A stretch of DNA of 64,000 bases from an uncultured Bacteroidia bacterium (GTDB taxonomy: Bacteria; Bacteroidota; Bacteroidia; Bacteroidales; ML635J-15). Position numbers and translations under genes: made by a program. The stretch covers positions 62,001-126,000 of the forward strand of contig CADAXK010000004.1 in the NCBI GenBank assembly GCA_902791865.1. Direction: 5' to 3'. Of the stretch, positions 3,390-46,580 are shown one piece after another. The notes under the pieces were generated by a model, which searched no databases, had not been told where the DNA came from, and saw only the letters and a program-made list of their open reading frames with translations. Numbering within the stretch: the stretch's first letter is position 1; every line of letters begins with the position of its first letter.

Positions 3390-4817
3390 TCATTCAGAAA
3401 ACAAATCGTCAAGCGTAACCGAAGCAGAAACTTTGTCCGAATGAGAGTTCGTCTTCAGTCCATTAGATGTAATCATAGTTAGCAACACTCCGTCATGCAC
3501 TTTCATTTCCGCACTATACACAGCCACTCTCCTTTCCAACCGTTTTTCTTCGTCCGCATCAATGGAATATGGCAACTTGGAATATTTTATCTCACAAATA
3601 TTCACATTGCCGTCAGAACGTTCTATGACCAAGTCAATCTGCACATTATCCTTCTGCTTTCTGCTGCGCCACGAAAAGTATTCCGTATTAATCCTATCAA
3701 TGCCAAGTGCCTTTTTTATCTGTGGTATATGCGACATACAAACCCGTTCAAACGAAAGTCCATACCAAGTATTAAGTGTTGGAGTTTCAATGTGGTCTGT
3801 CCAGAAATGTTCGTTGGTTGTGACATTGTTCTGCAAAAAAGTAGCGTAAAAAAGCGAAAAGAAATCCTTAATCTGGTATATTCCAGATGATGACTTTATT
3901 TTCTTTCCCTTGACATTGTACATCCGCAAGAAATCGCATCGTATCAGGTTCTGCAACAGCATAGTAAGGTTTCCGCCAGTTTTAAGACCAAGTTTCTCCG
4001 ACAATTCCTTGCGCGTAAGCCCCGATTTGTTTTCCGCCAGTAATTTTACAATGTGCTTGTAAGGTTCCGGCGAGTTGAACAAAGTCTGAAACAGCCTGTC
4101 GTACTCGAACCTAAGCACCGCATCAGATGAAAACAAAAGCCTGTCGATGTTATTTGCCAAGCTTTGTTCCTTGCGCAGCAAACTCAAATAATAAGGCACT
4201 CCGCCAAACACCATATACGACTGCAGTATCGAAGTCCGTCCCCACGAAAAGCCATTTTTAGCGAAGTATTTTTCTGTTTCGGCAAGCGTAAATGGTTGCA
4301 AGTGCATTTCCTGAGTTATACGGTTGTGAAGTCCTCCACGATTGTCGATGATTTTGCTAACCATCCACGATGTTGCTGAACCACAGACAATAAGCAAGAT
4401 ATTGTCCTGCAACGAAGCCCAACTATTCCAGAAATAGCCCAACGCACGAACAAAACCAGACCTCTGCGTATCCAAACAAGGAAGTTCGTCGATAAACACA
4501 ATGCGACGGCGTAGTTTCTTCTTTTTTGCAAGATAATCGCGTAACACAGAAAAAGCTTCGAGCCAAGTCTTTGGCGTTTTCTCCAATTTGTTTCCGTACT
4601 GGCTCATAGCATCGGTAAATGCGTGCATCTGCTCATCGAAACTACCGTCAATGATACCTGTCATAGAGAAGGCAAGCCTGTTGCGGAAAACATTGTTCAC
4701 AAGAAATGTCTTTCCTATGCGCCTGCGACCATAAATAGCAACGAACTCAGCCTTTGCCGATTGGGCATAGTGTTCAAGTTCTTCTATTTCGTTCTTTCTT
4801 CCAATAAGTTCCTGCAT
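3390..4817 (-). CDS. AAA ATPase with C-terminal nuclease-like domain, cassette 1
   Basis: A 475-residue archaeal-type ATPase. Walker A is GRRRIGKT at residues 30-37, Walker B is IVFIDELP near residue 110, a sensor-like IVCGSATSW follows, and NRGGLHNR supplies conserved arginines. After a winged-helix-like middle region, the C-terminus has QIDLVIERSDGNVNICEIKY, matching the D...ExK pattern of PD-(D/E)XK nucleases as in DUF234 (PF03008). Family biochemistry is largely unknown. The gene stands alone between two 237-bp palindromic direct repeats, 43 bp downstream of the right one. Diverged homologues at 11291 and 45135 have the same layout with other palindromes. Function is inferred to involve its own flanking repeats. 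Confidence 0.9.
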   Translation of the reverse strand: MQELIGRKNEIEELEHYAQSAKAEFVAIYGRRRIGKTFLVNNVFRNRLAFSMTGIIDGSFDEQMHAFTDAMSQYGNKLEKTPKTWLEAFSVLRDYLAKKKKLRRRIVFIDELPCLDTQRSGFVRALGYFWNSWASLQDNILLIVCGSATSWMVSKIIDNRGGLHNRITQEMHLQPFTLAETEKYFAKNGFSWGRTSILQSYMVFGGVPYYLSLLRKEQSLANNIDRLLFSSDAVLRFEYDRLFQTLFNSPEPYKHIVKLLAENKSGLTRKELSEKLGLKTGGNLTMLLQNLIRCDFLRMYNVKGKKIKSSSGIYQIKDFFSLFYATFLQNNVTTNEHFWTDHIETPTLNTWYGLSFERVCMSHIPQIKKALGIDRINTEYFSWRSRKQKDNVQIDLVIERSDGNVNICEIKYSKLPYSIDADEEKRLERRVAVYSAEMKVHDGVLLTMITSNGLKTNSHSDKVSASVTLDDLFSE

Positions 4818-11290: not shown

Positions 11291-12712
11291 CTACTGGAAC
11301 AAATCTTCGAGAGTTACTACTTTCTGCAATCTTCTCGAATACATATTGTCCACTAGTCCTGCCGATGATATCATCGTGACCATTAACGACTTCCTTGTCC
11401 CAGTTTCTTTCTTGAAGGTATCCATTTTCCTGTGTAGGTCGCTGTCGTATTCCTTGGTAATTTCAAATTCGTGCCTTGTGTATTTCATTTCGCAGATGTT
11501 GATGGTCTTGTCTGCCCTATCTATCAGTAAGTCTATCTGTGCACCGTTGCGATGGTCATTGCCCGATATGCTCCATGAACAAGGCGTATTGTTTATGCCG
11601 GCAATGCTTAAAGCCTTCAATATCTGCTCTATATGGTGCAGGCAAAGTATTTCGAATGCATAGCCGCACCAGTTGTAAAAAGCTGGAGTTTCTTGGATTT
11701 TCGACCAGTATGCCTGCTTTATCGATTCCCTTTTCTTCAAATATCTGAAATGGAACAATGTAAACGGGTCGATAAGCTGGTACATCGTATCTTTCTTGTT
11801 TTTCCCGAATGGCGTATAACTTCTTATGAATTCGCATTGTTCGAGTTCCCTTAGTGTGGCAGTGAAGTTGCCGTTGTTTACGCTTTTTGTCGCTTTAAGC
11901 AGTTGCAGTCTTGTCATTCCCATCCCTTTGGTTGCCAGTGCACTGACAATGGCAATATGCTTTGTAGCTTTCTTGAACAACGACGAATACAGGTTGTTGA
12001 ACTCCATGCTCAATTCTGCACCTCGCATAAAGCATAGGTTGTCAATGTTCTGCGCAACACTTTTGTCCTGCTCGAACAGCGACAAGTAATATGGAATCCC
12101 TCCGAGAGCCATATAACATTCGGCAATTTCTTCCTGTGCATATCCAAAACCGTTTTCCTTGAAATAGCTTGCACATTCGCGCAGAGTGAAAGGCGAGACA
12201 AGCATTTGGTGAGTAACCCTGTTGTGCAGTCCGCCTCTGTTTTTAATAATCTTGTTAAGTATCCACGAGGTTGCCGAACCGCAGACGATAAGCTTTATGT
12301 CGTTCCGATACGCAGCCCAGCTGTTCCAGAAATGTTCAAGTGCGCTAATGAATCCGCTGCCTTTTCCATCCATCCACGGCATTTCGTCGATAAAGATTAT
12401 TTTCTTGTCAACCTTCAGTTTCCCAAGATATTTTTCAAGCATAGTGAAAGCTGTCAGCCAGTCGGTTGGAACATCGGGACAGCGTGTATATTTCTGCATT
12501 GCCAGCTGGAAGTTCTTGAGCTGTTCGCTGTTTGAAACATTTGCCATTCCAGTAACTGAGAATGAAAAATCACCGCCGAGCACCTGTTTTACAAGGAAAG
12601 TTTTTCCAACCCTGCGTCTGCCATATAACGCTATGAATTCGGATTTTTCTGTCGCAACATATTGTAACAGACGCTTTTTCTCTGCTTCTCTGCCAATCAA
12701 TATCTCTTTCAT
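11291..12712 (-). CDS. AAA ATPase with C-terminal nuclease-like domain, cassette 2
   Basis: A 473-residue homologue of the proteins at 3390 and 45135. Walker A is GRRRVGKT, Walker B IIFIDEMPW, then IVCGSATSW and NRGGLHNR, a winged-helix-like middle, and a C-terminal AQIDLLIDRADKTINICEMK with the D...ExK nuclease pattern. The start at 12712 (MKEILIGREAE) aligns with the homologues; an ATG at 12733 would add seven residues lying over the adjoining palindrome. The gene stands alone and its own half-site arrays touch both ends, the nearest only 12 bp from the start codon, which invites autoregulation. The three proteins are clearly related but strongly diverged. Confidence 0.9.
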   Translation of the reverse strand: MKEILIGREAEKKRLLQYVATEKSEFIALYGRRRVGKTFLVKQVLGGDFSFSVTGMANVSNSEQLKNFQLAMQKYTRCPDVPTDWLTAFTMLEKYLGKLKVDKKIIFIDEMPWMDGKGSGFISALEHFWNSWAAYRNDIKLIVCGSATSWILNKIIKNRGGLHNRVTHQMLVSPFTLRECASYFKENGFGYAQEEIAECYMALGGIPYYLSLFEQDKSVAQNIDNLCFMRGAELSMEFNNLYSSLFKKATKHIAIVSALATKGMGMTRLQLLKATKSVNNGNFTATLRELEQCEFIRSYTPFGKNKKDTMYQLIDPFTLFHFRYLKKRESIKQAYWSKIQETPAFYNWCGYAFEILCLHHIEQILKALSIAGINNTPCSWSISGNDHRNGAQIDLLIDRADKTINICEMKYTRHEFEITKEYDSDLHRKMDTFKKETGTRKSLMVTMISSAGLVDNMYSRRLQKVVTLEDLFQ

Positions 12713-12724
12713 TGCCATCGTATT

Positions 12725-26634: not shown

Positions 26635-28365
26635 TTATTTGCTTAACCAGCCGGTAATTTCCTCGACAGTTGGATTCTGCAATCCAAGCTTGTGCTTCTT
26701 GTTCATTCCGCACAATGTCGGGTGCAACTTCTGTGGACTCATTTCCTTGAGCTGCTTTACGGATGTGATACCGCACTTATATATGACCTTTGCCCATTCT
26801 TCGCTGATGCCCAAAGCTGTATAGTCCTCGATATTGAAAGCATCTGCCTTCTTTTCAGGACGCATCTGCGGGAAGAAAAGAACATCCTGTATAGAAACCG
26901 AATTGGTCATAATCATCGACAGACGGTCGATACCGATGCCCAAGCCTGCCGTCGGAGGCATACCGATTTCCATTGCGGTGAGGAAGTCCTCATCGAGCAT
27001 CATGGCCTCTTCGTCACCACGCTTAGCAAGCAACAACTGCTGCTCGAAACGGTAGCGCTGGTCAACTGGATCGTTAAGTTCAGAATATGCGTTGCAGATT
27101 TCCTTTCCGTTGCAAACAGCCTCGAAACGTTCAACAAGACCTTCCTTCGAACGGTGTTTCTTTGCCAACGGCGACATTTCAATAGGATAATCGGTGATGA
27201 AAGTCGGCTGTATGAGCTTCGATTCGCAGCATTCACCAAAGATTTCATCAATGAGTTTGCCCTTGCCCATGCTATCGTTAACCTCCACTCCTACTTTCTT
27301 TGCAACTTCGCGCAATTCAGCCTCGTCCATCTTTGAAATGTCGATGCCGCTGAAATGCTCGATAGCCTCAAACATGGTGTAGCGTTTCCACGGACGCTTG
27401 AAATCGATTATATTTTCACCAACCTGAACCTTGGTGCTTCCGTTGGTGTCGATAGCAATCTTCTCAACCATTTCCTCAACCAAATCCATCATCCAGTTGT
27501 AGTCCTTGTATGCAACATAAAGTTCCATCTGTGTGAACTCGGGATTGTGGAAACGGTCCATACCTTCGTTGCGGAAGTCCTTTGCGAACTCGTAAACACC
27601 GTCGAAACCACCGACGATAAGACGCTTCAAATAAAGTTCGTCTGCAATACGGAGATACAAAGTCTGGTCGAGGGTATTGTGGTGAGTCTTGAACGGACGC
27701 GCAGCAGCACCACCGTACATAGGCTGCAGAATCGGGGTTTCGACCTCGAGGTAACCCTTAGCATTGAGGAACTGACGCATCGAATTGGTAAGCATGGTAC
27801 GCTTTATGAAAGCCTCCTTAACCTGCGGATTTACAATCAAGTCCATAGAACGGTTGCGGTAACGCTGTTCGGGGTCGCTGAAAGCGTCGTAAACCTTACC
27901 GTCCTTTTCCTTTACTATTGGCAGCGGATGCAACGACTTGCTGAGAACTGTAAATTCCTTTACATGAACCGAAATTTCACCCATCTGTGTGCGGAAAGCA
28001 AAACCCTTGACACCAATGATGTCGCCGATGTCGAGAAGTTTCTTGAAAACCTGATTGTACATAGTCTTGTCTTCGCCCTCGCAGATGTCATCGCGGCGGA
28101 AATACAGCTGAATACGACCTTTTTCGTCCTGAAGTTCAGCAAAAGATGCATTACCCATGATTCTGCGGCTCATCATACGGCCAGCAATCGAAATGTCCTT
28201 CAAGTCTTCAGGCAGATTGTCGTCGCTGAACCTGTCGAGAATATCCTTAGTATTGGTCGTCACCTTGAATTCGGGTGCCGGATATGGATTTATACCTAAA
28301 TTTATCAATTCCTTCAACGCCTCGCGACGGAGGATTTCCTGTTCGCTTAAACCTAAATATTCCAT
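26635..28365 (-). CDS. lysS: Lysyl-tRNA synthetase, class II
   Basis: A 576-residue class II enzyme charging tRNA-Lys. It has the N-terminal OB-fold anticodon-binding domain (residues about 55-160), motif 2 ([18 protein letters not shown]) and motif 3 ([14 protein letters not shown]). A C-terminal extension of about 70 residues after motif 3 (from about residue 510, [15 protein letters not shown] to the end) goes beyond the E. coli core and resembles a helix-hairpin-type module often found on Bacteroidales LysS. It has its own -7 element and terminator. Confidence 0.95.
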
Positions 28366-28381: not shown

Positions 28382-28389
28382 CAAAATTA
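28382..28389 (-). promoter_or_regulatory. -7 element TAATTTTG of lysS
   Basis: Minus-strand TAATTTTG, 16 nt before the lysS ATG; matches TAnnTTTG. The -33 part is not clear. Confidence 0.45.
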
Positions 28390-28435
28390 CATAAAATATT
28401 CGGAAATATAAAGCCAACGGAAAATGTAAATAAAA

Positions 28436-28466
28436 CAAAAAACAGACCGCCGAAGCAGCCTGTTTT
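28436..28466 (-). terminator. Terminator after the 36-residue protein gene
   Basis: Minus strand AAACAG-gct-GC-ttcg-GC-ggt-CTGTTT, a stable stem with a UUCG loop, followed by TTTTGTTTTATTT. Confidence 0.8.
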
Positions 28467-28485
28467 GGTATCACATTTAGCAAAT

Positions 28486-28596
28486 CTACTTTTTCGGTTT
28501 AGGTGGCATATTTCCTCGTCCAGACCCCGACTTATTATTAGTTGTCGATGGTCCATTTGGAATAGGCTTACCTCCTTTGTTGGTCTTCTGTGCCAT
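28486..28596 (-). CDS. 36-residue basic protein
   Basis: A short gene: ATG at 28596, stop TAG at 28486-28488, 36 codons. The product starts MAQKTNKGGKPIPNGPS and ends GRGNMPPKPKK; it is rich in Gly, Pro, Lys and Asn, without hydrophobic segments. Support: an AGGAGG-type ribosome-binding site 8 nt upstream (rare for this genome), a terminator just after the stop, and a position 13 bp behind the lipoprotein gene at 28609. Function unknown; a disordered nucleic-acid- or ribosome-associated peptide is possible from composition alone. Confidence 0.6.
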   Translation of the reverse strand: MAQKTNKGGKPIPNGPSTTNNKSGSGRGNMPPKPKK

Positions 28597-28608
28597 ATAT
28601 ACTCCTCC

Positions 28609-28980
28609 TTACTTTGTAAATTCAATTATTTCGCCAGAGAATGTCACGACAATTTTCTTACCGTTGCTCAAATAATCAACGCAAGTGTTTATTATAGCAT
28701 GGCTTCCTGTCATTGTTATGCCTGCAGCCTTCGCATTGTCCAAGAAATCCTGCTTGGCAGCCGACACAAGTCCATCCTTATCCCTTACGGTCAATGAAAC
28801 CGCATTTGCAATCGATTTGCCAGTAAAGCTTCCAAGCACTTTGAAATTAGCCTTGTCAAGTACAACTTGAGTCTGATTGACCTGACCATAGTAAGCATTA
28901 GAACCACCATACTGCATTGGCTTGCATGATGTAAAACCCAATACTATCGAACATGATAGTAAAAACAATAATTTCTTCAT
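28609..28980 (-). CDS. Small lipoprotein, DUF6567-like
   Basis: A 123-residue lipoprotein: MKKLLFLLSCSIVLGFTSC with lipobox Cys19. The mature part (NAYYGQVNQTQVVLDKANFKV onward) resembles small Bacteroidales lipoproteins of the DUF6567 kind with an alpha/beta body; this match is from memory. The start at 28980 begins the signal peptide, whereas the longer frame to 29058 runs into the preceding gene. It is followed by the 36-residue gene and lies behind two more lipoprotein genes, probably one transcript. Confidence 0.75.
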   Translation of the reverse strand: MKKLLFLLSCSIVLGFTSCKPMQYGGSNAYYGQVNQTQVVLDKANFKVLGSFTGKSIANAVSLTVRDKDGLVSAAKQDFLDNAKAAGITMTGSHAIINTCVDYLSNGKKIVVTFSGEIIEFTK

Positions 28981-29006
28981 ATAACTATAATTTATTAAAA
29001 AACTTT

Positions 29007-29789
29007 CTACCAATCCAATCCTACAGTGAATTTTATAGAGCCAATTGAAGCAACCCATGTGTAGGAACTACTTCCAAACGACATATACGAACTTTCGAAA
29101 ATACAGTTTGCCATATTATCGTCAGAATCAAGTTCATCGTAATCATAAAATTCTATACTATATGTTGATTTAGAATCCAATGTCGTATTAACTTGCCACT
29201 TCACTGGTAATTCGCCAACATTATACTTTGTTGCACTTGTATATAGCTCAGATCCATTTGTTTCTGTAATCTTAAAATATATGTCTGGTTCGATACCACT
29301 CGACACGCCTGTATCCCAAGATGACAATCTTATTTGCTGAAGTTCGAGATATGTTATTGTGTATGATGATGGTTTTGATACCGTAACGTACTTGGTCTTG
29401 TGACTGCTTTTCTTTCCATTCTTTGAATAGGCATGAAGTATTATTTTCTTTTCTCCAGCATATTTAAAACTAATCAAATCAGGACAATATCCTATGTAAT
29501 ATTCATAATCTTCTTTAGAATCATCTCCCAATATAGAAGAAAAAGATACAGCAGACAAAGCTGCAAGCGCGGTTTCGTATGAGTCGCTTGCAGATACATG
29601 CGACCTGTCACCAAATTCCCAAATATAACTATAGGCATTAAGCGAATAATTTGAAACAAAGAAAGTCTCTCCAGCAACTACACTTGCAGGACAATCGAAA
29701 TCAGCTTCTACATCCTTTGTACATCCCGTAAGCCACACCAAAGATACGGCTACCAAACAAGCAACAGAAATACTCCAAATCCTTTTCAT
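29007..29789 (-). CDS. Lipoprotein with PKD-like domain
   Basis: A 260-residue lipoprotein with signal peptide ending VWLTGC (Cys23). Residues about 28-60 show a PKD-type beta-sandwich motif (ADFDCPASVVAGETFFVSN, then YSYIWEFGD). The C-terminal half, starting around YTITYLELQQI, reads as a C2-like or beta-sandwich domain (FYDYDELDSDD). PKD domains mediate surface protein-protein or carbohydrate contacts. It is flanked by two other lipoprotein genes on the same strand, 13 bp behind the one at 29803. Confidence 0.75.
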   Translation of the reverse strand: MKRIWSISVACLVAVSLVWLTGCTKDVEADFDCPASVVAGETFFVSNYSLNAYSYIWEFGDRSHVSASDSYETALAALSAVSFSSILGDDSKEDYEYYIGYCPDLISFKYAGEKKIILHAYSKNGKKSSHKTKYVTVSKPSSYTITYLELQQIRLSSWDTGVSSGIEPDIYFKITETNGSELYTSATKYNVGELPVKWQVNTTLDSKSTYSIEFYDYDELDSDDNMANCIFESSYMSFGSSSYTWVASIGSIKFTVGLDW

Positions 29790-29802
29790 TTATTTAACAA
29801 TT

Positions 29803-30408
29803 TTAATATTCATATTCTTCTATTTCTTCACTCGCACCTTTTATCAGATTAGGTGTTTCACAAGTATAGATGTAACCACAGTCTGCATTTACTGTATATT
29901 CCTTAGTCGATGGATAAAGAACATAGCCGTCCAACTGCGTAAACTTCACATTGTAAGAATATCCAGCCTCAATCTCCAACGAATCCAATGTCCTGCCTGG
30001 CATACTTATCTGCTTGATGGTGTTGTTTGCCGGACAAGTGATGTCAACCTGATAGTTGTCGCTAGTAATGTTCACATACTTAATGTATGCAGGGCGACTT
30101 TCTATTGTAAATATAACAGAACCATTCTTCGGCAAAAACTTGGAATCGTTCACCACTTGTGGATGTTCAAAATAACCATCCTTTTGTGTTGCTACAAGAT
30201 AATATGAACGTTCAACATCATAACTAGTATTTGCATCCGAAGCCCCAGCCGCAATAGTTCTGACAGATTCGAAATTTAAATTATCCGTAACCACCGCTTC
30301 GTAAGTAGAACGCGTATTGTTCTTTACAACTACAGTTCCTTCCTTCTTACAACCACTAAAAACTGAAGCCAAAGCAACAACTGTCAAAATTTCAACTAAT
30401 CTTTTCAT
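29803..30408 (-). CDS. Lipoprotein of unknown function
   Basis: A 201-residue lipoprotein; the signal peptide ends VFSGC (Cys20). The body is mostly beta-strand, with three stretches of similar pattern (for example YEAVVTDNLNFESVRTIAAG and YNVKFTQLDGYVLYP), suggesting small repeated beta-domains. No family is recognised. It is the first of three lipoprotein genes transcribed leftwards and may belong to the accessory block with the LytTR genes upstream. Confidence 0.7.
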   Translation of the reverse strand: MKRLVEILTVVALASVFSGCKKEGTVVVKNNTRSTYEAVVTDNLNFESVRTIAAGASDANTSYDVERSYYLVATQKDGYFEHPQVVNDSKFLPKNGSVIFTIESRPAYIKYVNITSDNYQVDITCPANNTIKQISMPGRTLDSLEIEAGYSYNVKFTQLDGYVLYPSTKEYTVNADCGYIYTCETPNLIKGASEEIEEYEY

Positions 30409-30519
30409 TTCAATATAACTTTTGAATTAAACATATTTTTATTCCACAAAAATATATCACAAAACTCACTAAGTGTCAGCATAGTAACAACTTGACAATT
30501 TAAAATATCAAATGGCACA

Positions 30520-31068
30520 CTAATTATCCGACAATACAAGTTTTCTTACCATCGGTAACTTTCTACGACTGACAGGAATCTGCATTTTGCTTTGTTTACC
30601 GGCTACATCAATGTAACTTACAGCAATTTTTGCCGACTTCTCATCGCAATGCTTCAATAGGCTGCGGTTTACGAAATAGCCGTTGCACACCTCTACAAGT
30701 TCGCCATCGCAAAGTTTCATTTTTCCAGCAATGTCACTTTTCAATTTGAAATCTACAAGGATTCCTGGCTTACGATTGGCAAAAATAATCCGCTTGTTAC
30801 CTCCACGCCTTGCATTCGTATGTTCGCTGTCGCGAAGCGGAACGATGGCTACGATGTTGCGCAGTTCGACCTCACACTCCTCCTCTCCTTTCATTTTCAC
30901 AGGCACCAAGCGGCTCTGCATGTTGCTAAAACACAACGAATAGTCGCATCCAGACACATTCAAATCGACCTGTATCCGCTTCACATGCACATCGTTGCGA
31001 TCAGACATCAGAGTGCTAAGTTCCGAAATAGCGTATTCAATCGTTTTATGTGCTTCCATTTTTGCCAT
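30520..31068 (-). CDS. LytTR-type DNA-binding protein without receiver domain (A)
   Basis: A 182-residue cytoplasmic protein. The C-terminal 110 residues have the LytTR outline: ELRNIVAIVPL, NKRIIFANRKPGILVDFKL, LVEVCNGYFVNRSLLKHC and ISRRKLPMVRKL-like end. The first 70 residues are a separate alpha/beta region and not a receiver, as no phospho-acceptor Asp pattern is present. It is paralogous to the protein at 32137. The start at 31068 is the first ATG; a TTG three codons upstream is less likely. Three GTAAC/GCAAC half-sites 22 bp apart (31154-31202) lie upstream. Confidence 0.7.
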   Translation of the reverse strand: MAKMEAHKTIEYAISELSTLMSDRNDVHVKRIQVDLNVSGCDYSLCFSNMQSRLVPVKMKGEEECEVELRNIVAIVPLRDSEHTNARRGGNKRIIFANRKPGILVDFKLKSDIAGKMKLCDGELVEVCNGYFVNRSLLKHCDEKSAKIAVSYIDVAGKQSKMQIPVSRRKLPMVRKLVLSDN

Positions 31069-31153
31069 TGATACCAATAATTTACTATTATTCTACATAA
31101 AGAAATTTTTCAACTGCAAAATTATCCAATATAACCACTTGTTACTCAACAAA

Positions 31154-31202
31154 GTAACGAGTTGCATTAAAAACAGCAACAAAATATTCCAACACAGGCA
31201 AC
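31154..31202 (-). promoter_or_regulatory. LytTR-like half-site triplet upstream of LytTR gene A
   Basis: On the plus strand GTAAC (31154), GCAAC (31176) and GCAAC (31198) are spaced exactly 22 bp apart, so on the gene strand they read GTTAC/GTTGC in direct repeat. LytTR regulators typically bind 9-bp direct repeats with centres 21-22 bp apart around a GTT core. They lie 86-134 bp upstream of the start codon. Confidence 0.5.
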
Positions 31203-31261
31203 CCATTACTCTATTTAGCCGTTTATTACATGAGTACCGAAACTCAACTTTGCGTTCTAGC

Positions 31262-31290
31262 GGAGGGCGATGTATGAGGCATCGCCCTCC
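31262..31290. repeat. Perfect intergenic palindrome GGAGGGCGATG / CATCGCCCTCC
   Basis: Eleven-bp perfect arms around TATGAGG, just 3' of the Asp-rich gene. There is no T run on either strand, so it is a REP-like palindrome or an mRNA 3' stabiliser rather than a standard terminator. Confidence 0.65.
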
Positions 31291-31297
31291 TGCATTA

Positions 31298-31837
31298 CTA
31301 TTTCTCACCTCGCGAATGCTGGAACTCAGCATTGTTCGGATTCAGCTGATTGGAATGGTTGTCGTTGTCGGGATTTGACCTATGCATATCGAACAAAGGA
31401 ACGAATTCTATAGATTCGCAACCAATAGTCCTGAACAACACCCAGTCTTTAAAATTATCCGACAGGAATCGATATTCTTCCATTGCTCGTTGCATACCTT
31501 TACAAACAAAAGTTCCTGCGGTAGTTATAAATTCCAATCCATTATATTCTGTTCTCGTATAACCATCTTTTGTGATAGTTTCTTTTAACAGCGCAACTGA
31601 CACAATATTCATTACAGCTAATTTATATTGCTTTTTAGGCGAATTAATTGTAATAAACCAACAAGATTCTAAACTTCTAAAATTACCTTCCATTTCATCT
31701 TCGTTTAAATCGTTAATACTTGTATTTTCTTCTTCTTTTGGACTTTCCTCTACACGATAAGATCTATAATAGTCATCATCATCGTCATCATCGTAGTCGT
31801 CATCATCATTGTAATTGTTATAATATCTTCCGTACAT
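31298..31837 (-). CDS. Hypothetical protein with Asp/Tyr-rich N-terminus
   Basis: A 179-residue cytoplasmic protein. Residues 1-25 are almost wholly Asp, Tyr and Asn (codons GAT/GAC in a near-repeat), then an acidic linker to about residue 50, and a folded domain from SCWFITINSPKKQYKLAV to about residue 150, followed by an Asn/Asp-rich tail. No family is recognised. The start at 31837 is preferred; a longer frame to 31912 would read through a GAGACG palindrome. It lies between two LytTR-only genes, with two GCAAC half-sites about 200 bp upstream. Confidence 0.6.
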   Translation of the reverse strand: MYGRYYNNYNDDDDYDDDDDDDYYRSYRVEESPKEEENTSINDLNEDEMEGNFRSLESCWFITINSPKKQYKLAVMNIVSVALLKETITKDGYTRTEYNGLEFITTAGTFVCKGMQRAMEEYRFLSDNFKDWVLFRTIGCESIEFVPLFDMHRSNPDNDNHSNQLNPNNAEFQHSRGEK

Positions 31838-31865
31838 AATTAATATTAATTTCGTTTTTTTACCT

Positions 31866-31890
31866 AAGACGCTGCACGCATCGTCTCTAC
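31866..31890. repeat. GAGACG-type 25-bp palindrome, copy 1
   Basis: AAGACGCTGCACGCATCGT followed by CTCTAC; partly degenerate arms AGACG/CGTCT. It is the same element as 31977-32001, 111 bp away in the same orientation. From memory, GTAGAGACG...CGTCTCTAC palindromes are common dispersed repeats in Bacteroidota and cyanobacteria. Confidence 0.65.
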
Positions 31891-31976
31891 AATTATTATT
31901 TAATAAATCCAATTTTGTCTTTATGGTCCGCTTGCCATATTTTCCTTTTTTATGTTAAACATTCCGTTCTTTACAT

Positions 31977-32001
31977 GAGACGGAGCACGCACCGTCTCTA
32001 C
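31977..32001. repeat. GAGACG-type 25-bp palindrome, copy 2
   Basis: Perfect arms GAGACGG / CCGTCTC around AGCACGCA... and ending CTAC, followed by eight T on the plus strand. Paired with copy 1 at 31866. Confidence 0.7.
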
Positions 32002-32038
32002 ATTTTTTTTCAAAATTTCCGCCACAAAATGCCAATTG

Positions 32039-32063
32039 GCAACCACCGATTCCTTCTGGCAAC
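32039..32063 (-). promoter_or_regulatory. LytTR-like half-site pair upstream of the Asp-rich gene
   Basis: GGCAAC occurs at 32038 and 32058 on the plus strand, 20 bp apart. The spacing and core are those seen in the array upstream of pVip. The remainder of this gap (31838-32136) holds the two GAGACG palindromes and nothing else recognised. Confidence 0.4.
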
Positions 32064-32136
32064 ATATTGCTAAATTATTTTTCATTACTACCTCTTATTG
32101 CCTTTGGTTGCATTTTAACCATGACACAACCTTCTG

Positions 32137-32643
32137 TCAATCAGTAATATTATGCCATATTTTCAGGACTCCGGGCAAATACTTTCGCGAAACTTTCAGC
32201 GTTGTTTCCTCGTTGTCATAGACTCCTACTATTATCTCCTTGCTTTTTACATTAAGATTCTTGATTTCATCCCTATTCACATAAGTTGACTTGCTTATCT
32301 GAACAAATTCATCGTCACTAAGCTTCCAAACACGCCGAAAATCAGTATTTGATGTGAAATTTACCAGCACTCCGTACTTGCGATTCTTGAAAAAAACGCA
32401 CTTGTTACCTGTATTTGCCCCATTTCTCTTGTCTGTCGATACATACACAATATCACTCAACTTGCATCGGCACACTTCTCCTTTCAATTTCAACTCAATC
32501 GATTTCTCACCTTTTTCGGCAGAAGCAAAACCTATTGTCACATCTTCCCCATGAATATTGAAACTCACCTTTAGCGATTTAAACAAATTGTCTATATCCT
32601 TGCCATTATCTTTCGTGGTGCAAACCAATTCAATATTTTTCAT
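32137..32643 (-). CDS. LytTR-type DNA-binding protein without receiver domain (B)
   Basis: A 168-residue paralogue of the protein at 30520. The C-terminal LytTR-like domain shows CKLSDIVYVSTD, NKCVFFKNRKYGVLVNF, FVQISKSTYVNRDEIKNL and SRKYLPGVLKIW; the N-terminal 65 residues are alpha/beta without a receiver Asp. It begins 11 bp after the pVip stop and must share its transcript, so it is either a regulator of the defence operon or a feedback element on the same half-sites. No signal peptide. Confidence 0.75.
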   Translation of the reverse strand: MKNIELVCTTKDNGKDIDNLFKSLKVSFNIHGEDVTIGFASAEKGEKSIELKLKGEVCRCKLSDIVYVSTDKRNGANTGNKCVFFKNRKYGVLVNFTSNTDFRRVWKLSDDEFVQISKSTYVNRDEIKNLNVKSKEIIVGVYDNEETTLKVSRKYLPGVLKIWHNITD

Positions 32644-32654
32644 AACCCCAATTT

Positions 32655-33809
32655 TTAAAGAAGTACTATTTGATTTTTTGTTCTCAATTCACAAAGGTTT
32701 TCACAGAAAAATACCGTAACTAACACAAACCTATCAAGCATAACAATCATATTTTTATGTGGGATACTAATATGGTTCAACTTCATGAAAGGCTTTCCAA
32801 CCACAATCAAGGCTTTTCCTGCAAAAGAACACTTGATACTACTTAGCACAGCATTAACTTCCATATCAGAAACATTGCGTTCTCTTTGGCGTTTCCTGAA
32901 ATGCCGGGTCTTCACATAAAGTCCCGACTTGTCATTCTTATTGCCGACATCATATTCCCCGTTACGCGCCACAAACTTCTCAACACTGTAGTTTATCTGC
33001 GACAAGGCTTTTTCAAACCCAACCTCTGCAATTTTCTGCGATGTGGTATAACCACCATTCGAGTTGTCGAAGAAACAACCCTCAGGATTTATCATCAGGT
33101 AGGAACCTCGCATCAAATCATTTGTTTCCACAACCACAATGCTTTTGTTTGCAACACTATCAAGCTGACGATTGCAATACGCTTCATACTCAGCATCGCT
33201 AACTTCGCACTGGTCGAAATTGGCCTCGTTCTCACCCTCGACACGCAAAGCTTGAAAAATCTTCCAACGCATCGGATTCAACTTATTGATAAACAATGCG
33301 AGATTTTCGTCCTTGTTAAACTTTGTGACTACCGTGTTAATCTTCAAGTTTACACCATATTTATGACATGCAGAAGCCAGCACTTCGTAATGCGCCAATG
33401 TCGGCAGAACACCAACTTTCGAGCAACGCCCAGACAAACGGTTTATTTCATCTGTTGCACTGTCAATACTAATAGTAAGGATATTCAAGTATCTTGAGAT
33501 TTCCCTTACCCATCTTTCATCAATAAGGCTTCCATTTGTAGTCACGCTTGTTGTCAATCCAAGTTTGCTCGCGTACTTTACCAAGTCCACCAACCTTTTG
33601 CCAAGCAAAGTCGGTTCGCCACCAACGAAATTAATTTTCCTAATGTACTTCTGAGCAGCAATAATTTCCAGCATCTTCTTCTGCTCCTTAAAGGGAACCA
33701 TCTTTTCCACATCGTTGAAATTTGCAAAGCAAAACTTGCATCCGTAGTTACAGCCCTTAACCAAGTGGTAGTTGACCGTTGAAATTTTTTCTGTTGTTGT
33801 CATAGCCAT
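32655..33809 (-). CDS. Prokaryotic viperin (pVip), radical SAM antiviral enzyme
   Basis: A 384-residue radical SAM protein. The cluster motif is CNYGCKFC (Cys20, Cys24, Cys27). Segments match animal viperin closely: VNYHLVKGCNYGCKFCF, KINFVGGEP, TNGSLIDERW, LKINTVVTKFN and LNPMRWKIFQALRVEGEN. pVips convert CTP, GTP or UTP to 3'-deoxy-3',4'-didehydro nucleotides that terminate phage transcription (Bernheim et al. work on pVips). The core ends near residue 295; about 90 further residues form an extra domain with HFRKRQRERNVSDMEV, resembling DUF4258/RelE-like proteins. Co-transcribed with LytTR gene B, and preceded by an array of regulatory half-sites. Confidence 0.9.
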   Translation of the reverse strand: MAMTTTEKISTVNYHLVKGCNYGCKFCFANFNDVEKMVPFKEQKKMLEIIAAQKYIRKINFVGGEPTLLGKRLVDLVKYASKLGLTTSVTTNGSLIDERWVREISRYLNILTISIDSATDEINRLSGRCSKVGVLPTLAHYEVLASACHKYGVNLKINTVVTKFNKDENLALFINKLNPMRWKIFQALRVEGENEANFDQCEVSDAEYEAYCNRQLDSVANKSIVVVETNDLMRGSYLMINPEGCFFDNSNGGYTTSQKIAEVGFEKALSQINYSVEKFVARNGEYDVGNKNDKSGLYVKTRHFRKRQRERNVSDMEVNAVLSSIKCSFAGKALIVVGKPFMKLNHISIPHKNMIVMLDRFVLVTVFFCENLCELRTKNQIVLL

Positions 33810-33832
33810 ATAATTTTTAAATGTTTACACAG

Positions 33833-33840
33833 CAAAAGAA
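33833..33840 (-). promoter_or_regulatory. Weak -7 element of the pVip operon
   Basis: Minus-strand TTCTTTTG, one mismatch to TAnnTTTG, 24 nt before the ATG at 33809, with no TTG -33 element. A weak core promoter with an operator array starting about 50 bp further upstream fits activator dependence. Confidence 0.35.
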
Positions 33841-33891
33841 CCTCAGAATATTACCATGGACTAATATTGCCCAGTAAGATGGACTAGAAAA

Positions 33892-34058
33892 GCAATGAAA
33901 TATACAACTCACTAATAATCAACAACAACTCAAAGCAATGAAATGTGCTCCAATCGGCAACAAATGGCTATTTTTGAGCAATGAAATACATTTTTGCAAT
34001 TTCATTGGGCAACGAAATGCAACCTGTCAGGCAATGAAACTACATTTCTGGCAACAAA
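33892..34058 (-). promoter_or_regulatory. Array of seven LytTR-like half-sites upstream of pVip
   Basis: The plus-strand octamer GCAAYRAA occurs at 33892, 33935, 33957, 33978, 34009, 34031 and 34051, always in the same orientation (gene strand TTYRTTGC). Steps are 43, 22, 21, 31, 22 and 20 bp, all close to multiples of the helical repeat. LytTR proteins bind direct repeats with 21-22 bp between centres and a GTT core. The array fills the gap between the response regulator terminator and the pVip promoter. Confidence 0.65.
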
Positions 34059-34091
34059 AAAGGGGCAAAAACGTCAAGTTACTGCCCCTTT
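34058..34091 (-). terminator. Terminator after the LytTR response regulator gene
   Basis: Minus strand AAAGGGGCA pairs with TGCCCCTTT and is followed by further T. It separates the kinase/regulator unit from the pVip operon. Confidence 0.8.
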
Positions 34092-34111
34092 CAGTATTTT
34101 TCAGAGATAAT

Positions 34112-34852
34112 TTACCTTATATTCTTAACAAAATTTGGCGACACCGTCAATGTTCTGGAAACCTTTTTGCCTTTTTCCATACAATGCACTTCTATTTCGT
34201 TTTGCATCTTGCCATCAATATGCGCCTTGTTAACATAACAGCCTTTGTTTATCTGCACAATTGCAACTGTCCTCAAACTCCATTCAGCTATCTTTGAAAA
34301 ACTGAAGTCTGACAATTTTATCGGTTCTTCGCTCTTAAAATATATCATCTTATTGTTTGAACCATCTGGTATCGACTCCAGAAAGACAATGTCGGATGCA
34401 GGAATCTTAACATACATACCATCCGCTTTCTTGAATGACAACATCTGCTTTTGGAACTGATGCAACCTTATTTCGTTACAGAAACTTCTAACCTTGTTCT
34501 TGAACTTTTCGTCGGACATTGGCTTTGTAATATGCATAACCACATCAATCCGGTCACTCAAATCCTCAATATTGTTCAAATACTTTGCATTATATCCACT
34601 CACAAATAACGACGGTTTCAAAACCTTTTCTGCAATCTGAAGTCCAGTATAAGAACCAGTAAGGTCAATATCCAAAATCAAAGCATCAACATTATCTGGA
34701 TTTTTTCTGTATTCTGCAAAAAATTCCTCGGCATTATGAGCCTTTATAACAACCTCAACATCGCATTCATTTTTCAATTCGTCAAGGTTTTCGCACCTAT
34801 CGTCAAGGTAAAGCTGTTCGTCCTCAACTACAGCAAATCTTATCTTCGACAT
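34112..34852 (-). CDS. LytTR-family response regulator
   Basis: A 246-residue regulator with a receiver domain (acidic VEDE at residues 9-12, phospho-acceptor Asp61 in LILDIDL, the Ser of FVSGY and Lys of ITKPMS) and a C-terminal LytTR DNA-binding domain from about residue 140 (MYVKIPASDIVFLESI, TVAIVQINKGCYVNKAHI). It lies at the end of a unit of three kinase-like genes and just upstream of the half-site array and pVip, making it the prime candidate to bind those sites. A terminator follows. Confidence 0.9.
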   Translation of the reverse strand: MSKIRFAVVEDEQLYLDDRCENLDELKNECDVEVVIKAHNAEEFFAEYRKNPDNVDALILDIDLTGSYTGLQIAEKVLKPSLFVSGYNAKYLNNIEDLSDRIDVVMHITKPMSDEKFKNKVRSFCNEIRLHQFQKQMLSFKKADGMYVKIPASDIVFLESIPDGSNNKMIYFKSEEPIKLSDFSFSKIAEWSLRTVAIVQINKGCYVNKAHIDGKMQNEIEVHCMEKGKKVSRTLTVSPNFVKNIR

Positions 34853-34882
34853 ACTTATATCTTTTAATTTACAATATAAACA

Positions 34883-35140
34883 TCATTTCCATATTCCTTC
34901 CCCATTCTCATCCAGAAAATCCGACACACTATTAATATCATTATAAAAATCATCTGTCAACTTCTTCAATTCCTTTGTTTGAATACGATAATACTCAATC
35001 TTATTCCTAATAGTATGTGGAAATATCTTATTTTTCAGCGTTTTGTCTTTTAGTGCATACGAAAGTTTCTTGCATTTTACCTCCACATGAATCCACCGTA
35101 TCAATATCAATCCGCCAATAATTCCTAACACTATTCCCAT
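34883..35140 (-). CDS. Truncated kinase-like protein with H-box but no ATPase domain
   Basis: An 85-residue protein: one N-terminal transmembrane helix (MGIVLGIIGGLILI), then a helical H-box IFPHTIRNK with His42, and a second helix ending SVSDFLDENGEGIWK. It aligns with the first 85 residues of the neighbour at 35176 and with the dimerisation region of the kinase at 35929, but stops before the ATPase domain. It may be a decayed duplicate; alternatively it can serve as a phosphotransfer subunit, because it keeps the His that the neighbour lacks. It lies 30 bp upstream of the response regulator. Confidence 0.65.
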   Translation of the reverse strand: MGIVLGIIGGLILIRWIHVEVKCKKLSYALKDKTLKNKIFPHTIRNKIEYYRIQTKELKKLTDDFYNDINSVSDFLDENGEGIWK

Positions 35141-35175
35141 ATCGCTAATATTTTTTCAAAAGTAATTTTTAATCA

Positions 35176-35871
35176 TCATCTCTTTTCGAACAACAACTTA
35201 AAGTAAAAATAGCCATCTTTACTGGCAGTGTACATGCTACATTTATACTCATAGTTATATTCGTTATAATTTGAAATCCTATCTTTCATATTTTCAATGC
35301 CAAGTCCGCCCAATTCCCCTTTTCTTGAAACTGCATCAAGTTTTATCTTATTCGTTACAAGTATCTCATAGTTACCTTTTTTCTTTTCTGTTATGTCTAT
35401 CTTCATAAAATCTGGAGCTGATCTATCGCCATGCTTAAACGCATTCTCAATCATCGAAACTGTAATCTTGTCGGGCAATTCAAAATCATCATGCTTTATA
35501 TTCACGTTTATTTTAACATTATCAATATTTTGATCACACGATGTATTTACATAATTCTTAATCATTGCAATCTCTTCGGATATTGGTGTTAGAATACGCT
35601 CCAATGAATCATCATCACCATGCGCCTTCTCCCCAAGATAATCCGAAATGCTATTAATTTCCATATACAATGCGTCCACCTTACTTTTCAATCCTATGGT
35701 TTTGGCACATAAATTATCCATTTTACTTCTTATTGTAAGTGGAAGTGACTGAATTTTCAATAATATATCCTGCTTCTCACGCTTAAGTTTTTTGCACCTT
35801 CTTCTTGAAACAATGTACAAAATCAAAAGCACGACATTAAACAATGCACTAATGCCTAACACAATTCCCAT
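35176..35871 (-). CDS. LytS-like kinase homologue lacking the phospho-acceptor His
   Basis: A 231-residue protein with one N-terminal transmembrane helix, a dimerisation helix and a HATPase domain (N-box ENAFKHGD, G-box GGLGIENMKDR). At the position where the related proteins have PHTIR, this one reads LPLTIRS, so the phospho-acceptor His is replaced by Leu while the ATPase motifs are intact. It could phosphorylate a partner in trans, for instance the adjacent 85-residue protein. The ATG at 35871 is the first; a TTG two codons earlier is less likely. Confidence 0.8.
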   Translation of the reverse strand: MGIVLGISALFNVVLLILYIVSRRRCKKLKREKQDILLKIQSLPLTIRSKMDNLCAKTIGLKSKVDALYMEINSISDYLGEKAHGDDDSLERILTPISEEIAMIKNYVNTSCDQNIDNVKINVNIKHDDFELPDKITVSMIENAFKHGDRSAPDFMKIDITEKKKGNYEILVTNKIKLDAVSRKGELGGLGIENMKDRISNYNEYNYEYKCSMYTASKDGYFYFKLLFEKR

Positions 35872-35928
35872 ATACAAGTATTTAGTAGTTCAAACATATT
35901 TTTTCGATTCGCTACAATTCTATTTTGC

Positions 35929-37152
35929 TCATTCCCTAGTATTTTGAAAAGTCAGTCTTGAATAGTAGTAATCGCCATCTGTTCCATTATCCAACAATGC
36001 TATGTTGTTCGAACCTATGTTTTCCGAGTAAAGTTCGATTCTTCGCTTCATGTTCTGAATTCCAAGGCCACCTCTCCATGTCCGTTGTACGTCATCCTTC
36101 AAAATTCTATTTCTAATCTCAATCGTGTATTTGTTGACCTCCTGCACAAAGGAAACCGACAAGAAATCGGGAGCATTAACATCGCCATGCTTAAAAGCGT
36201 TCTCAATCATTGGTGTCGTTATCCTTGACGGTATTAATATATCATCCTTCTTTTTGTCATTCAACCTGACATCGAACGACACATTCCACAAATCACCATT
36301 CGTCTTGAAATCCAAATACATCTTTACATTTTCCAGTTCATCGTAAATGGTACTCATATTTTTTTCATGCGAATTGTCCTCGGCAATTTCCGCCAGGAAG
36401 TCGCATGTACTTTCCATCTCATAACGCAGACTGTTTATCTTCGACTTTAAGGCACTATCTTCTTGACTATCAGACATACGTCCATTTATATCCTTAGATA
36501 TTTCTTTGATTTTCAGTCTAATGCTTTCAATTGCATTCCGTATCGTATGCGGTTCTATCTGAAGTTTCAAATTATCATCCCTAATCTTTCTATACTTTAC
36601 AACATATACGACCGCAACTATCAGAGAAACAGCAAATAAAATCCCAATAATCCAGTTCCACAAGATTGGATCCTTCATAATGCCATCGCCTCTAACAGAA
36701 CGAACAGCTTTTGACAAAAGGAACGCAAATAGGCCCAAAAATCCACTCAATACAAAGCCTTTATGCCTTAATATATAATTTTTGAATTTATTATTTTTTA
36801 TATACAGGACAATTGGCAATGCAACAAGCACAAGTATGACTACCGAGAGAATAATCCATAAAATCGAATTGTACATTACAGCATTATATATAGAAAACAG
36901 CAAACCCATGAACAAAATGACACCCAACGCTCGACTAAATAAATCAAGTACAATTTTGGCGAACTTTTTATTTTTTATAAATAGGACAATTGCCAGTGCA
37001 ACAAGCGCAACCACAACAACAGAAAGAATACAAATCCATGAAATAGCATTAGCTTTTATCGCATCAATCAGGAAACCCAACGAAAATATAAACATTAATA
37101 TGTATATTACTACGCAAATAAATGTCAACGCTTCTTTTAGAAACTTTTTCAT
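35929..37152 (-). CDS. Membrane histidine kinase with repeated transmembrane modules
   Basis: A 407-residue LytS-like sensor kinase. The first 190 residues hold six or more transmembrane segments in three related hairpins; the first two repeat at about 59 residues (SVVVVALVALAIVLFIKN versus SVVILVLVALPIVLYIKN), with clear DNA similarity as well. Then the H-box EPHTIRNAIE (His202), the N-box ENAFKHGD and the G-box GGLGIQNMKRR. There is no periplasmic sensor domain, so the signal is probably membrane-borne or reaches it through partners. It is the first gene of the kinase-regulator unit, divergent from the FKBP genes. Confidence 0.85.
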   Translation of the reverse strand: MKKFLKEALTFICVVIYILMFIFSLGFLIDAIKANAISWICILSVVVVALVALAIVLFIKNKKFAKIVLDLFSRALGVILFMGLLFSIYNAVMYNSILWIILSVVILVLVALPIVLYIKNNKFKNYILRHKGFVLSGFLGLFAFLLSKAVRSVRGDGIMKDPILWNWIIGILFAVSLIVAVVYVVKYRKIRDDNLKLQIEPHTIRNAIESIRLKIKEISKDINGRMSDSQEDSALKSKINSLRYEMESTCDFLAEIAEDNSHEKNMSTIYDELENVKMYLDFKTNGDLWNVSFDVRLNDKKKDDILIPSRITTPMIENAFKHGDVNAPDFLSVSFVQEVNKYTIEIRNRILKDDVQRTWRGGLGIQNMKRRIELYSENIGSNNIALLDNGTDGDYYYSRLTFQNTRE

Positions 37153-37236
37153 TACATTTTTGTTTGCAAAAATAATACATTTTTCATCTTCATTCCAAAC
37201 TTTTTCCCTTTCTTTGCATTCCTAAATTAGTAAACT

Positions 37237-45134: not shown

Positions 45135-46580
45135 TTAGTCATTTTCAAACAAATCCTCGCTTTCGATTTCGCTTTGCACATTATCCCAATACATATTATG
45201 GGCGACTCCCATTGACGTAACCATCGTGATAATAGGCGTTTTGCGTGTATGCGTCACTCGGAGGAAAGTATCGCGACGGTCGAGCATTGTATCATTGTAA
45301 TCCTTGGTTATCACAAATTTTCCATCGGAATATTTCATTTCACAAAGGTTAATATAGTCGTCGCGGCGGTCGATTACAAGGTCAATCTGCCCACCGTTCC
45401 ATTGGGTTCCGTCGCTGTCGGTAAACGACTTACATTGCCACGAACTTACCGAAGTTTCGATTCCGCTGATACCTATCTTTTTCTTGATTTGCGATACATG
45501 TTGCAGGCAAACCTGCTCAAATGCATAGCCTTTCCACGCCAAAGTGGAATCAAGTATGTGCGACCAATGGTGTTCGTCCCTGCCAGTATAATTCTTAACA
45601 AACCGCAAGTAAAACAATGAGTACAAATCTGTTAACTGATACATAACTTCACGTTCCTTTTTTCCAAAAGCATTGTAGCTTCTTACAAAATCGCATTGGC
45701 ACAGATTATCCAAAACTTTGCTAAGATAGCCGTTATCAAGCAATTTCGCTTCACTTATAATCTCCTGCTTGGTTAGTCCCTTTATTTTCGTTGACAAGGT
45801 TTCGATAACTTTCTGATAAAGTTCCGAATCGTTGAAGAGAGACTTGAACAGAAATCCAAACTCGTTTTTCAAAGGCGCATTGCTTGAAAAAAATAGGTTG
45901 TCGATATTTTGTGCCACGCTAAGCGACTTCTGGAACATATCAAGATAGTACGGTATTCCGCCAACCACCATATATGTTTCAATTATCTGCTTCCTCTGCA
46001 TCGGAAATCCCTTCATTTTGAAGAACTCTTCAGTTTCGTGCAGGTTGAAAGGACGCAAATATATCTGTTTGGTTACGCGATTGTGCAATCCACCTCTGTT
46101 TGCAAGAATTTTGGTTGTCATCCAAGTTGTTGAAGAACCACAAACTATCAACTTAAGGTTGTTACGCTTAGATGCCCATCCGTTCCAGAACAACTAGAAT
46201 GCGCTCAGGAATCTTGACCGCGGAACATCGAACCAAGGCAATTCGTCAATGAAAACTACTATGCACTTTTTTCGCGACAATTTCTGGAGATATTGTTCTA
46301 GCAACGAAAACGCATCTATCCAGTTTTGGGGTTCGGGAAATTGCAGACCTGAATACTTTTTCAGTTGTTGCGAAAAATAAGACAACTGTTCTTGCTTCGT
46401 TGCCTGATAAATGCCAGTCATATAGAAGTCGTACTTTTTGCCGAAATACTGGTCAATCAGAAACGTTTTGCCAACACGGCGACGACCATATGTAACGACA
46501 AATTCGGCTTTGCCTGAATTGCAAATATCTGTAAGTCTCTGGGCTTCTTTTTCGCGACCTGCAAGTGTGTATCTTTTCAT
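45135..46580 (-). pseudogene. AAA ATPase with nuclease-like domain, cassette 3, interrupted by TAG
   Basis: The third ATPase homologue, about 481 codons, with one in-frame TAG at 46194-46196. The first part (from 46580) has Walker A GRRRVGKT and Walker B IVVFIDELPW; after the stop the frame continues with LFWNGWASKRNNLKLIVCGSSTTW, NRGGLHNR, the winged-helix-like region and GGQIDLVIDRRDDYINLCEMK, the D...ExK nuclease pattern. In cassette 2 the stop position is Glu, so a single GAG to TAG change could explain it. No other damage is visible, so the mutation is recent, or the stop is read through, or two pieces are made. Its own palindromes flank it. Confidence 0.85.

Follow-up and report, generated by a model that had tools for sequence, protein, structure and literature searches.

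What does the radical SAM gene at 32655-33809 (minus strand) of the 64,000-nucleotide stretch of Bacteroidia DNA analysed here (the window) encode, and how might its product be deployed by the genes around it? The open reading frame starts with ATG, specifies 384 amino acids and contains zero internal stops. An initial annotation had proposed a prokaryotic viperin (pVip) from motifs alone, and these motifs are indeed present in the radical SAM core with its CxxxCxxC signature (residues 1-287; 32949-33809, minus strand), namely CNYGCKFC, KINFVGGEP, TNGSLIDERW, LKIN and LNPMRWKIFQALRVEGEN. The scores lie far beyond chance. Residues 11-283 match NF038283, the NCBIfam viperin equivalog, at 293.6 bits (E = 1.3e-87; cut-off 180 bits), the PADLOC pVip model matches at 282.8 bits (E = 5.8e-85), and the nearest solved structures by sequence are viperins, with mouse viperin 5vsl at 1.1e-46. 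On this sequence evidence, the product is an intact, genuine prokaryotic viperin.

The predicted structure and the phylogeny point the same way. We compared the residues of mouse viperin which we take to form the iron-sulfur cluster and CTP sites: N77, C84, C88, C91, K120, R194, K220, N222, R245, K247 and Y302 are all conserved in the window protein, and almost every checked residue is invariant across ten other Bacteroidia pVips. The only checked position to differ is mouse Ser124, replaced by Val in the window protein and by Ala, Val or Thr in the other pVips. An AlphaFold model built from five sequences has a mean pLDDT of 64.7 over the whole chain, with higher, moderate confidence in the core; its top 30 matches in the PDB are viperins (6q2q, E = 1.7e-24), the best including mouse viperin with UTP or CTP. 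A grouping with MoaA or other radical SAM enzymes, the outcome that had been set against the viperin assignment, was not found. The protein scores 57 bits with the MoaA model (cut-off 284), and in a tree whose outsiders were 12 radical SAM proteins from the same order, MoaA not among them, it falls with the pVips with a support of 100/100. Scanning genome contigs with the viperin returned one near-identical orthologue and a phylum-wide search matched two genomes; orthologues in G017, G022 and G023 are 90-91% identical and sit in the same operon. Many pVips are accompanied by a nucleotide kinase gene, and none was found in the surrounding block (28.4-37.2 kb). The whole 384-residue protein had no match in phage records. 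As a separate observation, phage-borne viperin genes do occur in viral contigs (L158:5938-6810, L159:5974-6807 and L162:509-889), the first two with profile E-values of ~1e-103 to 1e-107 and with terminase-like neighbours at least in L158.

Viperin homology stops at about residue 287. The remaining ~95 C-terminal residues form a different domain, conserved in four genomes, which we term X (residues 291-384; 32655-32939, minus strand; recognised with profiles A1 and A2). The viperin-X fusion is kept in the three orthologues, whose X domains are 82-89% identical, and X also occurs at 38% identity fused to the otherwise unrelated B12 radical SAM protein that G007 carries at the same chromosomal site. 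A seven-sequence profile of X found 12 matches in 11 of 395 Bacteroidia genomes. Four lie at pVip loci: the window fusion and free-standing genes of ~100 amino acids beside the pVip in G126, G135 and G146, which represent three families other than that of the window organism. At five further loci X adjoins a glycosyltransferase-radical SAM gene, and an AAA-type ATPase gene lies close by; a TauD-like operon that includes the same type of sensor-regulator pair accounts for two more (G112 and G192), and the last X is solitary. With pVips in 17 of these 395 genomes, chance predicts about 0.5 genomes holding both; we observed four, each with X next to the pVip or fused to it. No X was found in the viral contigs or the plasmids searched. 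That X keeps being found with radical or oxidative enzymes of several kinds speaks for a general partner role more than for a toxin restricted to viperin.

The viperin operon lies in a block (28425-37175) that is an accessory insertion between lysS (26635-28365) and an FKBP-type gene (from 37237). Among near relatives compared at this site, with LysS 98-99% identical, G002, G008 and G015 have empty sites whose flanks align to the window up to 28389-28424 and again from 37176-37180; G015 is without window positions 28390-37175. The viperin operon occupies the site in G017, G022 and G023, and a single lipoprotein gene does so in G016. Elsewhere the site holds other cargo. In G007 the sensor, regulator, LytTR and lipoprotein genes resemble in kind those of the window, but the enzyme is a radical SAM protein of 500 residues that includes a B12-binding-type part and scores 247 bits with PADLOC PDC-M51A. 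In G006 the site (L097:5706-7847) encodes a 713-residue protein matching the PADLOC viperin-associated NERD model (47 bits, 3.3e-13); after it comes a gene whose product is 97% identical to the 179-residue protein of the window. The initial annotation had regarded 28.5-37.2 kb as a candidate defence island. Its accessory and variable character stands, but among ten block open reading frames tested the pVip alone is a defence gene, the others encoding regulators, lipoproteins and unknown proteins; the term has modest support, in that the slot is variable and its occupants in sister genomes include defence-linked alternatives.

Two LytS-type sensor genes, a fragment carrying an H-box and a response regulator gene precede viperin, all on the minus strand. 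The LytTR-type response regulator (34112-34852) has an intact receiver Asp motif, LILDID, and is 31-38% identical to pVip-adjacent regulators in G472 and G265. The LytS-type membrane histidine kinase (35929-37152) has intact H, N and G boxes. The classes of these two proteins rest on homologues, because the regulator has no Pfam match and the kinase scores 19.6 bits with PF06580, below the cut-off of 25.2; the homologues in G126 are all above the cut-offs for the Pfam His_kinase, Response_reg and LytTR families. Inspection of the boxes of the second LytS-type sensor (35176-35871) showed intact N and G boxes and an H-box in which the phospho-acceptor His is Leu in the window and His in G023. 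The adjoining 85-residue protein (34883-35140), with a 58% identical copy in G022 and G023, has a LytS-type H-box, FPHTIRN, and is without the ATPase part; the two are possibly complementary halves. Immediately after viperin-X comes a 168-residue LytTR-domain protein without a receiver (32137-32643; PF04397 31.8 bits, cut-off 22.6). Further along, also on the minus strand, are the 179-residue acidic protein, of unassigned function and on the same operon side (31298-31837), and a protein of 181/182 residues about 33% related to the 168-residue LytTR protein (30520-31068). Lipoprotein genes lie downstream of viperin.

The interval between the response regulator and viperin contains, on the coding strand, seven direct repeats similar to TTTCATTGC that form a putative LytTR operator (33892-34059, minus strand; starts at 33892, 33935, 33957, 33978, 34009, 34031 and 34051). 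Their start-to-start distances are 43, 22, 21, 31, 22 and 20 bp; most being 20-22 bp, most neighbouring repeats are two helical turns apart. Downstream of the response regulator gene is a terminator-like hairpin (34059-34091, minus strand; fold z-score -4.78), which makes a separate promoter for viperin probable. The array is conserved in the viperin orthologues, and TTTCRTTRC-N11-14-TTTCRTTRC, the exact double site, is found a single time in the 3.39-Mb genome, before viperin. Two or three repeats, 20-22 bp apart, also lie between sensor-regulator genes and the pVip in G126, G135, G265 and G472, members of four families other than that of the window organism, and at each of these loci 0 of 1000 dinucleotide shuffles reached the observed repeat-pair count. 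Across our sample of 13 pVip loci above the cut-off in 395 Bacteroidia genomes, which are mostly drafts and in which several loci are truncated at contig edges, the array is present at all five loci with a sensor pair and at none of the eight without a linked pair. Taken together, these findings suggest that viperin-X is turned on by a sensor-regulator pair of its own.

The double-site pattern gave 29 matches in the 395 genomes against 18 for a reversed control, and of the remaining exact matches most fall within genes such as tsf or represent background; hence the pattern alone is not diagnostic, whereas its position is, since it marks each of the five pVip loci that have the sensor pair. Further arrays in G291 and G143 adjoin LytTR regulators of other genes. 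Considered with the five sensor-pair pVip loci, this suggests that the array belongs to the LytTR regulator family, for which pVip seems to be the most frequent target in our sample. The G007 operon and the TauD loci of G112 and G192 have only weak or looser repeats. On the pVip tree, the best reconstruction of the sensor pair takes four changes and shuffled labels do equally well, so we make no claim of repeated gain.

We consider it likely, then, that the locus is an inducible antiphage viperin operon producing ddhNTP, an accessory defence cassette with dedicated signal control. The production of ddhNTPs and the termination of phage transcripts by them are established properties of viperins. 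According to our model, the LytS-type membrane sensor, together with its partner sensor pieces, would detect a signal, presumably infection or stress, and phosphorylate the LytTR response regulator. This in turn would bind the array and activate the promoter before viperin-X. The viperin half, with SAM and its [4Fe-4S] cluster, would then dehydrate a nucleoside triphosphate, and the resulting ddhNTP would terminate phage transcripts. X would serve the enzyme as a partner module that is covalently attached here and encoded by its own gene elsewhere. X may be an RNase partner, as has been proposed for pVip-linked HicA and RelE (PMC10865869), or it may act as an adaptor or regulate the enzyme.

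It is tempting to speculate on the first of these roles, in which X would be a RelE/DUF4258-type RNase and a single protein would combine chain termination with RNA cleavage in dual-action abortive infection. The hicA and relE genes are reported to adjoin pVip genes (PMC10865869), DUF4258 (PF14076) has been assigned to the RelE/ParE superfamily (PMC11980606), and X weakly resembles this family: it has a conserved H and R, and the two have in common the motif [TS]xHxxxRxxxR in the N-terminal helix and a last strand that contains T. AlphaFold2 gave low confidence for X both alone and in the full chain; the modelled order is alpha-alpha-beta-beta-beta. We nevertheless did not assign X to DUF4258, because the score of 15.2-15.5 bits is below the Pfam gathering cut-off of 25 and the profile-profile match (hhalign, 45%) covers 27 columns at the start of the domain. 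Moreover, a sequence search of the PDB with X gave chance matches alone and no RelE structure, the fold, which is BECR in RelE/ParE proteins, is not confidently predicted, no antitoxin was recognised beside X, and X lies mostly near glycosyltransferase/radical SAM and other enzymes. We therefore regard an RNase as a possible but unlikely identity.

The remaining alternatives question control or chemistry, and both are less likely still. An ordinary pVip, in which X serves as a stabilising tail and the sensor pair has another target, would accord with the many pVips that work alone and with the eight of 13 pVip loci that have no linked sensor pair. We think this improbable: the double site stands uniquely before viperin, the same sites and type of regulator precede pVips of four other families, and X is found independently beside pVips. 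Very improbable, in our assessment, is a viperin-derived enzyme with another substrate, occupying an enzyme slot for signalling or secondary metabolism rather than defence. This would fit the lipoproteins downstream and the recurrence of the sensor-regulator-X layout with a B12 radical SAM protein (G007) and a TauD-like dioxygenase (G112 and G192), yet the checked CTP- and cluster-site residues are conserved apart from the Ser124 position, itself variable among pVips, the score is far over the viperin cut-off, and G126 and G135 share the layout with a viperin-nucleotide kinase fusion. The same recurrence admits a broader reading that retains the inducible viperin operon as one member, and to which we give somewhat less than even weight: the locus may belong to a wider, undescribed Bacteroidia family of inducible effector cassettes, each comprising a LytS-type kinase, a LytTR regulator, a TTTCATTRC array, a swappable enzyme and X. 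The slot would hold a viperin, a viperin-kinase, a B12 radical SAM protein (PDC-M51A) or a TauD-like dioxygenase, with X as the common component working with each.

Compared with described pVips (NF038283, PADLOC pVip; Bernheim et al. 2021), the window viperin has the same core sequence, fold, catalytic residues and phylogenetic place, but, as far as the literature searched shows, adds the C-terminal X, linked LytTR two-component control and the putative operator array. The pVips adjacent to hicA or relE (PMC10865869) likewise have a small protein genetically tied to viperin; there, however, separate genes encode members of the HicA and RelE families, whereas here the partner is fused and is not demonstrably HicA or RelE. 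With LytTR two-component systems of the AgrA/LytR type the locus shares the two-turn spacing of its direct repeats, a LytS-type kinase and a LytTR-domain output; it differs from them in its putative antiviral enzyme target, its TTTCATTRC repeat and the extra receiver-less LytTR proteins of the operon. PDC-M51A in G007 and the viperin-associated NERD protein in G006 occupy the same slot in sister genomes, where they replace viperin rather than accompany it. Our literature search, whose scope excluded Bernheim et al. (2021) and a 2024 paper on viperin evolution, returned no viperin with LytTR, nor with histidine kinase and bacteria. Within the literature searched, the enzyme class is known, and the X fusion and the linked two-component regulation are new.

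These features bear on how bacterial viperins are controlled. Animal viperin is well known as interferon-induced; we know of no established inducer of the bacterial enzymes. The occurrence of a linked sensor-regulator pair and a shared putative operator before five unrelated pVips makes the question of induction testable by a reporter, and the cassette family, if it is confirmed, would in effect be the bacterial counterpart of interferon-inducible control of animal viperin. The fusion, furthermore, physically joins an unknown protein family to an enzyme predicted to make antiviral nucleotides, and the swappable slot offers further candidate defence enzymes.

Several minor observations concern X and the wider window. 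The genome of the window organism itself (L061:7575-15103; G000, contig C12) and L101-L104 share a conserved operon that encodes X together with a glycosyltransferase-radical SAM-SPASM protein, a phosphatase-like protein and further products. It adjoins a gene for an AAA regulator, which in G000 matches the PADLOC RtcR model CARF_AAA_HTH; in G277, genes for a pVip, a kinase and a glycosyltransferase are flanked by an AAA regulator of this type. At L099:6116-9122 and in L100, one operon without viperin comprises a sensor, a LytTR regulator, a TauD-like dioxygenase, a GRDP-like protein and X, and is a candidate new effector cassette. Finally, two adjacent open reading frames at 45135-46580 of the window resemble, by eye, a broken copy of an ATPase family with intact members at 3390-4817 and 11291-12718.
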